Assembly (NCBI RefSeq): GCF_900104055.1
Contig: NZ_FNJQ01000020.1
Coordinates: 23,715 to 65,690 of the forward strand
Reading direction: 5' to 3'
From: Pseudoselenomonas ruminantium
GTDB lineage: Bacteria; Bacillota; Negativicutes; Selenomonadales; Selenomonadaceae
DNA length: 41,976 nucleotides
The notes beneath the pieces are model-generated. The model was not told the DNA's origin. It saw only the letters and a program-made list of their open reading frames with translations, and searched no databases. Within the stretch, counting starts at the first letter, position 1; each line of letters opens with the position of its first letter. The position numbers were made by a program, and so were the translations under genes. Of the stretch, positions 2,892 through 5,784 are shown piece after piece.

Positions 2892-2959
2892 ATCAACTAC
2901 AACGAATTTAACATGAAACGCGTCTGCTTGTCAAGGACATTTTAAAGATAGTGTCGTTA

Positions 2960-3132
2960 GGGCGCGGGGATATATTTTGCGGGTTGCGCTAAATGACCGG
3001 CTCGGAAAGCCGCGCTTTCCAGCGAAATGCTCCGGTCACCACGTCGCGGCTTTCAGCGTTGTGTCCAGCTTTTTTCTATTACCGGCCAGCCTGACGGCAG
3101 TCGCTCCACCCGCAAAATATATCCCCGCGCCC
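2960..3132 (+). repeat. 173-bp element, copy 1, with 25-bp perfect terminal inverted repeats
   Basis: Arms 2960-2984 and 3108-3132 are perfectly complementary over 25 bp (outer end GGGCGCGGGGATATATTTTG). The 123-bp interior is homologous, without gaps, to the reverse complement of the interior at 3221-3343. Conserved islands are AAATG at 2991-2995, a 19-bp identical block GCTCCGGTCACCACGTCGC at 3029-3047 followed by CTTTCAGCG at 3050-3058, and GCCAGCCT..GGCAGT..GCTCC at 3085-3107. No credible protein is encoded; short open frames here cross the arms on both strands and look accidental. It could be a miniature mobile element, a structured RNA or a nucleoid-associated repeat; the sequence alone does not decide. 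Confidence 0.85.
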
Positions 3133-3195
3133 CTCGCTGTGCTTGTGGCTTTGGGTGAGGGGCTTGATTGCGATGTACTTGCAACTCTGTGGCTT

Positions 3196-3368
3196 GGCAG
3201 AAGGGGACTGTTTTTTGTATGGAGCGCACTGCCGGAGGCTGGCTCGCAAGAGAACGATGCGGGAAGATGCGCTGAAAGAAGCGACGTGGTGACCGGAGCG
3301 GGCGGCTAAGAAAACGGAATTATCATGCGAGACATTTGCGCGAATACAAAAAACAGTCCCCTTCTGCC
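3196..3368 (-). repeat. 173-bp element, copy 2 (inverted), with different 25-bp terminal inverted repeats
   Basis: Arms 3196-3220 and 3344-3368 are perfectly complementary over 25 bp (outer end GGCAGAAGGGGACTGTTTTT). Length (173 bp) and interior length (123 bp) equal those of copy 1, but the element is in the opposite orientation. The conserved islands sit at the same offsets, for example GCGACGTGGTGACCGGAGC at 3281-3299. The arms differ from those of copy 1 at about 12 of 25 positions, and every change is matched in the partner arm. A G-run followed by a T-run is common to both arm types. The copies are separated by 63 bp containing no recognisable gene. Confidence 0.85.
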
Positions 3369-3460
3369 GAGTAGCAGTATCTTTGAAGGATGCCCCTTCT
3401 CCCTGACGGATATAGGCTGAGAAGCAACGCTCCAACTTTGGACGGTGATGAAAAAATTTC

Positions 3461-3570: not shown

Positions 3571-4533
3571 ATGCTTAAAAGTATTGCAGTCATGACCAGC
3601 GGCGGCGACAGCCCCGGAATGAACGCAGCAGCTCGTGCCGTTGTGCGCACGGCGCTCTATGAAGGGGTAAAGGTTTGGGGTATCCGTGACGGTTATCATG
3701 GTCTGCTTGAAGAGAATATGTTTGAGATGAAGTCCAAAGACGTGGGCGACATCATCCAGCGCGGTGGTACGTTCCTGGGCACGGCCCGCTGCAAACGCTG
3801 GAAGACGCCGGAAGGCCGTATGCTCGGCTATCAGCATCTGGTGGACCGTGGCATTCAGGGCCTTTGCGTTATCGGCGGTGACGGCTCCCTGCGCGGAGCG
3901 TCCCTGCTGTCTCAGGAAACCGGTATTCCTATCGTAGGCCTGCCGGGCACTATCGACAACGACGTTTGGGGTTCTGACTACACCATCGGCTGCGATACGG
4001 CTGCCAACACGATCATCGATGCCATCAACAAGCTTCGCGATACGGCATCTGCTCATCGCCGCGTTATCGTCATGGAAGTCATGGGCCGCAGCTCGGGCTG
4101 GCTGGCACTGGTTTCCGGTATCTCCGGTGGTGCTGAGTACATCCTCGTACCGGAAGAACCGTTTGACCTCGATAAACTTTGCGATGATATGAAGAACGCT
4201 TATGCCGAAGGCAAGCGCTATATCCTCGTTGTTGTGGCTGAAGGTGCCGGCAATGCGCAGGAAATCGGTGACTTCATCGCCAAGAAGACGGAACTCGATA
4301 CCCGCGTGACGGTTCTCGGTCATATCCAGCGTGGCGGTTCCCCGACGGTTATCGACCGCGTACGCGCCAGCCAGCTGGGCGAGCAGGCAGCGCTGGCTCT
4401 GATTTCCGGCCTGTCTGATGTGGTCTTTGGCTTCAGCAAAGGTCGTGTCGTATCCATCGACCTGCACGATTCCGTAAACAACAAGAAGCAGCTTGATCCG
4501 GAATATCTGCACCTGGCTAAGGTCCTGTTCTAA
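3571..4533 (+). CDS. pfkA: ATP-dependent 6-phosphofructokinase
   Basis: The enzyme phosphorylates fructose 6-phosphate to fructose 1,6-bisphosphate, the committed step of glycolysis, in the cytoplasm. At 320 residues it has the usual bacterial PfkA length. Motifs in order: TSGGDSPGMNAA (residues 9-20, nucleotide-binding loop), GGDGSLRGA near 103 (the GGDGS form of ATP-dependent enzymes), PGTIDND near 125-131 with the catalytic Asp, MEVMGRSSGW near 170 (substrate binding), and HIQRGGSPT near 250. The ATG at 3571 follows AAGGGGGA by about 8 nt. It is transcribed alone, with a terminator directly after it. Confidence 0.97.
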   Translation: MLKSIAVMTSGGDSPGMNAAARAVVRTALYEGVKVWGIRDGYHGLLEENMFEMKSKDVGDIIQRGGTFLGTARCKRWKTPEGRMLGYQHLVDRGIQGLCVIGGDGSLRGASLLSQETGIPIVGLPGTIDNDVWGSDYTIGCDTAANTIIDAINKLRDTASAHRRVIVMEVMGRSSGWLALVSGISGGAEYILVPEEPFDLDKLCDDMKNAYAEGKRYILVVVAEGAGNAQEIGDFIAKKTELDTRVTVLGHIQRGGSPTVIDRVRASQLGEQAALALISGLSDVVFGFSKGRVVSIDLHDSVNNKKQLDPEYLHLAKVLF

Positions 4534-4692: not shown

Positions 4693-4768
4693 GTACCTAC
4701 CATGAGTTTAGGATGATTGATAACTCAAGAGTCGCACAATGTCAACATTACCTAGGAAGGGGATGAAC

Positions 4769-5218
4769 ATGATGCAAAAGCTTTGGAAGAAACTGGCTAT
4801 GGCAGCCGTTGTATGCGGAGCGATGGGGCTTTGGTCCGGAACGACGGAAGCAGCCGTAGCGCAGGCAGGCAATCCGTTTGCTGTAGCGATTACTGGTCAG
4901 GTGCAGCAGTATGATCTGAGTGTGGGCATTGATGGGCTTCCAACGGAAGATCTGCTGACACCAGCACAGCGCAGACGTATTGAAATGGAACGCCGTCGTC
5001 GTGAGATGGAGAGACGCCGTCGTTACCATCGTCCGCCTCCGCCGCCACCACGTCGCCATGGGCCTCCGCCACCGCACATGCGTCGGCATTATCCACCCCC
5101 ACCGCCACCGCGCCGGCACTATCCGCCACCACCGCGTCGGCATTGGTCAGTGGATACGAACATCACCAATAGTGTGTTCCAGCTGCCAAGTGGAGCAACG
5201 GCATCCGTGATGGATTAA
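4769..5218 (+). CDS. Small secreted Pro/Arg/His-rich protein
   Basis: A 149-residue protein with a clear signal peptide (MMQKLWKKLAMAAVVCGAMG, cleavage likely after TEA or AVA near residues 26-29). The mature part has a short conserved segment (NPFAVAITGQ, then LSVGIDGLPTEDLLTPAQR) followed by an Arg/Glu-rich helix (RRRIEMERRRREMERRRR) and a tail of Pro runs alternating with Arg and His. The start at 4769 is chosen because GGAAGG lies about 8 nt upstream; the ATG at 4763 touches the Shine-Dalgarno, and an upstream ATG at 4739 has none. The His/Arg/Pro tail could bind metal, polyanions or cell wall; no function is known to me. A near-copy follows at 5396. Confidence 0.7.
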   Translation: MMQKLWKKLAMAAVVCGAMGLWSGTTEAAVAQAGNPFAVAITGQVQQYDLSVGIDGLPTEDLLTPAQRRRIEMERRRREMERRRRYHRPPPPPPRRHGPPPPHMRRHYPPPPPPRRHYPPPPRRHWSVDTNITNSVFQLPSGATASVMD

Positions 5219-5257: not shown

Positions 5258-5395
5258 TTATGCACTTTTGCAATCGTGAACACTTTAATTTTGGAAAATA
5301 AAAATGATTACATTTTTGCAGAAAATAGTATAAGAAATGAACAAGGAATTATCAACAGGAGTGCAATGTCAACATTACCTAGGAAGGAGATGAAC

Positions 5396-5784
5396 ATGAT
5401 GCAAAAGCTTTGGAAGAAACTGGCTATGGCAGCCGTTGTATGCGGAGCGATGGGGCTTACAAAGAAAAAGAAGCAGCCGTAGCGCAGGCAGGCAATCCGT
5501 TTGCTGTAGCGATTCCTGGTCAGGTGCAGACGTTTGATCTGAGTGTGGGCATTGATGGGCTTCCAACGGAAGATCTGCTGACACCAGCACAGCGCAGACG
5601 TATTGAAATGGAACGCCGTCGTCGTGAGATGGAGAGACGCCGCCGTTACCATCGTCCGCCCCCACCACCGCCACGCCGCCACTATCCACCTCCACCGCGC
5701 AGAAGACATTGGTCGGCAGATACGACTGCCATCAACAATGCATTCCAGCTGCCGGATGGCTCCGTGGCTAAAGTAACGGAATAA
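5396..5784 (+). pseudogene. Frameshifted duplicate of the small secreted Pro/Arg/His-rich protein
   Basis: The sequence from about 5366 repeats that from about 4737, including the leader, the Shine-Dalgarno and the first 20 codons. In the signal peptide the 15-nt stretch at 4833-4847 of copy 1 is replaced by 11 nt (ACAAAGAAAAA) in copy 2. Translation from 5396 therefore runs into TAG at about 5480 (ending GLTKKKKQP), while the mature part (AVAQAGNPFAVAIPGQ...) continues in the -1 frame to 5784. The mature frame is otherwise intact and well conserved, so the shift is recent, or is bridged at the A-rich site AAG AAA AAG AAG. The second explanation is possible but unproven. The tail is shorter than in copy 1. 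The only alternative start in the mature frame, TTG at 5410, would destroy the signal peptide. Confidence 0.75.

Follow-up and report, generated by a model that had tools for sequence, protein, structure and literature searches.

In retron msr-msd RNAs, a structured core lies between private ends that pair. REPINs are inverted doublets of REP sequences and are linked to RAYT transposases. Integron attC sites are marked by conserved core tips and an integrase. Bacterial MITEs are short, non-coding, intergenic elements with outer inverted repeats and stable folds, in the accounts given by parts of PMC10969869 and PMC3049150. Some BOX repeats are transcribed, and the text of PMC3049150 makes no mention of compensatory change or covariation. 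Finally, IS1272, of the IS1182 family, targets stem-loops, as set out in part of PMC5678879.

Inverted pairs of hairpin elements occur in Selenomonas and its relatives. We hold that these couples are a real family of small, mobile-looking elements, for which no name was found. None of the open-licence papers listed in our searches describes repeats of this kind from Selenomonas: a search for "miniature inverted-repeat" together with Selenomonas led to work on viral satellites, as did one for repeat together with noncoding RNA.

The couple in the window

The window is the whole stretch analysed, 41,976 nucleotides of Pseudoselenomonas ruminantium contig NZ_FNJQ01000020.1. It contains two 173-bp elements, recognized in the initial annotation: element 1 (2960–3132), structured on the minus strand; and element 2 (3196–3368), structured on the plus strand. 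Both open with 25 bases whose exact reverse complement closes them, as first reported. These arms, given here on the plus strand, form the terminal stem P1: 2960–2984 is the perfect partner of 3108–3132 in element 1, and 3196–3220 of 3344–3368 in element 2, where the repeat reaches 28 bp with one mismatch (3193–3371). The arms of elements 1 and 2 differ at 12 of 25 positions, again as noted earlier.

The 63-bp spacer between the elements (3133–3195, no strand assigned) has CGATGTACTTGC, with one difference, in common with the spacer of the 600-bp subfamily described below, as judged by eye. Outside the elements lies a weak, imperfect inverted repeat of 19–21 bp, in which 2935–2953 (plus) pairs with 3375–3395 (minus); its local score was equalled in 0.3% of 2000 shuffles, for a stretch picked after inspection. 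The whole divergent couple, comprising outer repeat, element 1, spacer, element 2, and outer repeat, occupies 2935–3395 (about 460 bp, no strand assigned).

The interiors are homologous. An identical 19-mer is present at 3029–3047 of element 1 and at 3281–3299 (plus strand) of element 2, where it is the best-conserved inner stretch. With one interior reversed, 74 of 123 positions are identical ungapped, compared with a mean of 34.3 (sd 5.0, maximum 56) in 2000 dinucleotide shuffles. The interior local score is 69; shuffles average 16.8 and reach 31 at most. With element 1 as query, a whole-genome search recovered element 2 at E = 1.1e-9. The initial annotation had allowed that the resemblance might be chance confined to this pair; it extends beyond the window and stands above shuffles. 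The same annotation called the interiors gap-free; strictly they are not, since in the family alignment they carry small indels that cancel.

The couple is flanked by a minus-strand gene that starts at 2775 and by a gene at 3571, read from its translation as a putative pfkA. A ZMP/ZTP riboswitch lies at 2820–2896 on the minus strand, upstream of the minus-strand gene adjoining the couple, and the gene behind it is read as purH-like. The window has other repeated features. A palindrome close to TGTTTCACGTGAAACA, which we take to be the ParB site parS, occurs eight times in 42 kb (8937, 17887, 26630, 27834, 29447, 31259, 37236, and 41135), and three of these copies are fused to terminator-like stems. 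Tandem duplicate genes at 4725–5218 and 5352–5784, 93–94% identical over two blocks, encode a small Arg/Pro-rich, secreted-looking protein. A 63-bp tandem repeat at 3–128, 97% identical, overlaps a Lys/Glu-rich open frame.

Modules, couples, and their distribution

A search of the same genome with element 1 returned 29 rows at E ≤ 1, including the query and its own two arms; some rows near E = 1 are probably chance. Many of these copies match in the interior only. Full-length copies (modules) have their own inverted repeat of about 25 bp, with a few mismatches at most, and span 169–198 bp. One fixed end common to all copies, the mark of a plain MITE in the initial annotation, is absent. That annotation also described the ends as private to each copy. 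The arms do vary, but their types have a loose core (a G-run, then a T-run) and recur among copies: ATATTTTGCGGG, TGCTTGCTTTTTG, GGGGACTRTTTTTTG, and GGGGGAGTRCTTTTTCTG. Arm type is tied only loosely to interior similarity. For example, element 1 and the module at L002 are 82% alike inside and have different arms; element 1 and the module at L010 are 69% alike inside and have similar arms.

By plain DNA search, 10 of the 22 genus genomes have the family, as do 0 of 19 genomes from outside the genus. With a covariance model made from 25 copies, matches were found in 17 of the 22 genus genomes, and five had none. The number of model matches per genome reaches at least 84, opposite-strand duplicates included; there are 61–62 in the genome of the window and 78–79 in the genome designated G010, a few of them opposite-strand duplicates. 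When 121 genomes of the bacterial family were drawn and stricter filters applied, 12 had matches, three of these from two other genera. A pattern for the commonest subfamily gave at least 80 loci; of the 80 listed, 76 are in Selenomonas, mostly in S. ruminantium, whose strains HD4 and ATCC 12561 carry the motif. Rfam has no family at the modules (window at the gathering threshold; five loci at permissive settings). The phage and plasmid collections searched held no match to the elements; in viral contigs, a pattern of 20 fixed bases matched one stretch. A link to reverse transcriptase was considered and rejected: PF00078 occurs in four of seven genomes searched, with a distribution unlike that of module copies.

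Elements 1 and 2 were originally described as two inverted elements. Homologous and inverted they are, but they are halves of one divergent couple rather than independent insertions. Close pairs number 34 in the complete genome G010, and every one is divergent, with the structured strands outward; for this reason we take the couple to be the unit. Here 68 of 75 modules are paired (79 matches less four opposite-strand duplicates), and 31 of the 34 gaps measure 105–111 bp. At four loci (L031, L036, L047, and L134) a strong module is accompanied by a weaker one in divergent orientation; these loci include one of the seven single modules of G010, so that six of its matches stay single.

The interiors were cut into six clusters. 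Among the 49 couples with both modules aligned, 46 join two different clusters, as do 34 of 34 within the 600-bp subfamily; the remaining three unite modules of the same cluster, two of these three being one locus present twice. A simpler scheme, with two family-wide module types and one of each per couple, was rejected: clustering puts groups D and E nearer to each other than to B and A. The loss of this scheme leaves the couple, and the covariation described below, unaffected.

Some loci have altered arrangements. At L062 (genome G013), a deletion derivative keeps element 1's left arm and element 2's right arm, now joined, and at L342 (genome G017) a D/E couple has been cut down to one hybrid module. 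A nested insertion was suspected at L006/L007, where only a truncated end adjoining a full copy is shown. Terminator-like hairpins with a common GTCCGCTGAC-like core lie beside couples at L121, L122, L124, L135, L164, and L351; they may belong to the unit, mark a favoured target, or be ordinary shared terminators.

Covariation and strand bias of the proposed fold

The family alignment (A3) holds 150 of 157 matches, from hand-chosen loci that overlap in places. Structure was read on each module's own strand, minus for element 1 and plus for element 2. For P1 and four short helices, 94.4% of cells are paired; sliding the partner leaves no more than 48.5% paired. Changes on both sides are found at 27 of 40 pairs, and 0 of 500 shuffles were as high, although related rows mean that such counts overstate independence. 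The covariation score is 0.440, against 0.175 in shuffles and at most 0.127 with partners slid; because the structure comes from this very alignment, the comparison with slid partners is tilted in its favour. The internal helix P3 covaries at four of four pairs. In element 2 this helix joins 3244–3247 to 3327–3330 on the plus strand, positions taken by hand from the alignment.

The ends also vary with pairing preserved at orthologous sites, where the changes call for no fresh insertion, so that what the initial annotation saw in one pair of elements holds both here and family-wide. In 14 orthologous sets, 50 of 570 P1 pair comparisons were changed, comparisons within a set not being independent and S5a and S6a being possibly misaligned locally. 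The 50 include 15 compensated doubles and three other doubles, where independent arms predict 2.0 doubles; the single changes comprise 24 to or from G.U and eight that break the pair. P1 sites change at 0.060 per site, compared with 0.153 at positions outside the modelled pairs. Three compensated pairs distinguish element 1 of the window from its counterparts in G010 and G011, and the G011 element 1 has one lone arm change, which gives A.C on the expected strand.

The P1 mismatches are biased by strand. Read on the module's own strand, the ratio of G.U to A.C is 49:10 in group B, 10:3 in A, 85:13 in D, and 51:5 in E, the group labels being rough, from hand-typed motifs, with some E included in D. 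The totals, with four ungrouped rows, are 203 and 32 cells, alongside 70 cells with other mismatches; this count left out 16 of the 150 aligned rows (15 opposite-strand and one partial copy) as well as identical rows. Most G.U cells are confined to a few columns. Counted as distinct column-and-pair kinds, the ratios are 14:7 (B), 5:3 (A), 19:9 (D), and 9:4 (E). In each of the four groups, the own strand also gives the better fold. Upstream of the modules there is no conserved σ70 promoter (A/B and D are at shuffle level, E slightly above), and a promoter scan of the window gave chance level.

We read the covariation and the strand bias as selection on a folded single strand. Selection on a stem, as proposed in the initial annotation, is to this extent partly supported. 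The folded strand is most likely RNA. Strand-biased mutation in single-stranded DNA may be the source of the G.U excess.

These observations suggest a model, which we favour with moderate confidence: the couples would be small non-coding, mobile-looking elements of Selenomonas, with the couple as unit and with a fold that is kept by selection and read by a mover or maintainer. Each couple would consist of two homologous modules of about 170–200 bp, as a rule of different subfamilies, in a head-to-head arrangement with both structured strands running outward. On its own strand each module is predicted to fold into a branched structure, with P1 as its terminal stem (25–29 bp), a second, short stem, a small hairpin, and a P3 helix around a conserved hairpin. 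Selection would keep this fold, most probably as RNA or alternatively as single-stranded DNA during transfer, and the P1 sequence would drift so long as pairing holds. Presumably, whatever moves or maintains the couple reads this fold. A point against the model is that the structured strands of a couple are opposite, so two transcripts or two exposures would be needed.

The same pairing could in principle arise from selection-free repair, in an ordinary MITE whose arms are kept alike by arm-to-arm copying (template-switch quasi-palindrome correction, or conversion). Such correction could plausibly act on perfect 25-bp arms separated by 123 bp. The high copy number, intergenic sites, and outer repeats agree with this account, and couples inverted in place at two orthologous sites indicate that something acts on the repeats. 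Copying would yield perfect pairs, however, and would leave unexplained why G.U outnumbers A.C on one strand in all four groups; it also sits uneasily with the better folding of the own strand in every group, and with covariation throughout P3, whose 4 bp are short for copying. The wobble bias and the P3 covariation therefore favour strand-specific selection on the fold, and we regard arm-to-arm copying as a rather unlikely source of the pattern.

Sites, insertion sequences, and related systems

Returning to the favoured model, in which a selected fold belongs to a mobile-looking couple, the arrangement of sites bears on mobility. Couples of groups D and E, the commonest subfamily, measure about 600 bp between inward-facing 13-bp repeats, AAATTGCAGTTTG, and their flanks are unrelated. 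The unit is bounded by terminal inverted repeats, of 13 bp in the 600-bp subfamily and imperfect in the window couple. TA is frequent at both ends of the 600-bp units. Allowing up to one mismatch, AAATTGCAGTTTG is found at 41 sites in G010; at 38 of these it lies on a module's outer flank and points inward, and a reversed-pattern control found 0 sites. At this stringency the repeat occurs in G010 only at couples and at three unpaired sites, with no autonomous parent. Among the matches listed in G000, G011, and G017 (up to one mismatch), there is likewise no autonomous element with these ends; G000 is a draft in which many outer-repeat sites fall at contig ends.

Occupancy differs among relatives. 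The gap between lon and ysxC holds a couple one way round in G010 and the opposite way in G011, G003, G008, and G016; the couple is missing from the genome of the window, from G020, G013, G017, and G004, and from others. Another couple has opposite orientations in G010 and G011, its collinear flanks being 94–96% identical. The site of the window couple, located in G017 through a pfkA 94% identical to the query, has no couple. Orthologous couple-free sites exist, in intergenic gaps too diverged for clean target duplications to be read. The number of copies, the differences in occupancy, and the outer repeats lead us to infer that the couple is mobile.

These site differences weigh also on a second alternative, in which the host keeps the modules as a chromosomal non-coding RNA or regulatory element (an insulator, a terminator-like structure, or an RNase III site) spread by duplication. 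The strongly maintained fold is in its favour, as is the gene context. By a crude ORF rule, 37 couples, several of them mutual orthologs, lie in 13 convergent, 15 same-direction, and six divergent gene gaps, with three undetermined; this context fits elements tolerated between genes better than gene leaders. On the other hand, copies and sites vary among close relatives, as at the window site in G017 and at lon–ysxC, and five of the 22 genomes have no match. In the stems that were aligned for this purpose, the 12 bases beyond them contain no T-run, and there is no conserved promoter. A host function of this kind therefore seems improbable.

The stems themselves are targets for an insertion sequence. 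G017 has six copies of a 1,711-bp element of the IS1182 family (NF033551, E = 8e-106), and five of them sit at the foot of P1 stems (L351, L352, L353, L356, and L359). Each of these five is bordered by a 9-bp duplication that consists of the outermost bases of the P1 arm. The sixth copy lies in an apparent coding stretch without a full module. Among the 22 genomes, the full insertion sequence is found only in G017, with fragments in G008. Because its ends, GAGGCCACTGAAAAA, are unlike the outer repeat of the couples, the insertion sequence is a visitor and not the parent. Three 2.33-kb units with AAATTGCAGTTTG in G017 were tried as the autonomous parent and rejected: they are couples that hold the IS1182 element, with its own ends and 9-bp duplications.

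The stem insertions suggest that an enzyme can recognise the P1 stems in DNA form. A more specific form of the favoured model can be put forward tentatively: the mobile couple may be addressed by its shape, as RNA or single-stranded DNA, with ends that turn over freely and with stems that serve as landing sites for an insertion sequence of the IS1182 family.

Alternatively, modules could insert into ready-made palindromes and so carry captured arms, a possibility raised in the initial annotation. IS1272, which replaces stem-loops, is described in part of PMC5678879 as targeting them, and an IS1182-family element homes on these very stems in G017. Capture predicts arms that are unrelated between sites and that change only upon new insertion; the observed arms have a common core and recur, and they change by compensated steps at one site. 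Capture is thereby disfavoured, and we think it highly improbable. Least credible of all are retron-like msr-msd RNAs with pairing terminal repeats a1/a2. Their general plan is alike, with private complementary ends closing about 175 nt of structured RNA, but they would hardly account for the couples that were read, which have no gene between or inside the modules save for the IS1182 copies of G017, or for a PF00078 that, in the seven genomes searched, has no match in G017 (44 module matches) and is present in G007 and G009 (none).

What, then, would follow from a selected fold that is recognised? A small mobile element would be exempt from the usual rule of common ends between copies. Each unit would bring two structured modules, and rumen bacteria that can be cultured would supply dozens of natural variants. 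The couples would also offer a data set for distinguishing RNA-structure selection from copying between the arms of DNA palindromes, and would show how, in nature, an insertion sequence homes on stems. The results suggest that the folded shape, rather than the end sequence, is what is kept in these hairpin elements.

Among known systems, the IS1182-family element at the foot of the stems is in line with the stem-loop targeting described for IS1272; the couples are set apart from non-autonomous IS1182 derivatives by having no IS ends, with one IS1182-family element compared. Retron msr-msd RNAs have private paired ends as well, but here no reverse transcriptase tracks the copies in seven genomes. 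BOX elements of Streptococcus pneumoniae are likewise modular, high-copy, and strongly folded, and are set apart by being made up of different modules.

The bacterial MITEs RUP, Nezha, and QMITE2 are closer: they too are non-coding, with outer inverted repeats and stable folds, and the couples are likewise short, intergenic, and present in many copies. MITEs are thought to carry the ends of a parent insertion sequence, whereas no parent of the couples was found and the module ends vary among copies. In REPINs, as here, an inverted pair is the unit, and the view that singlets derive from doublets is a further likeness. However, REPs are short and have conserved tips, whereas modules are 170–200 bp long with conserved interiors, and their ends are the variable part; moreover, unlike in REPINs, the two modules of a couple are usually of different subfamily. 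The family, in our judgement, operates most like REPINs and MITEs but reverses, unusually, which part is kept: the ends are variable and covary, and the interiors are conserved.
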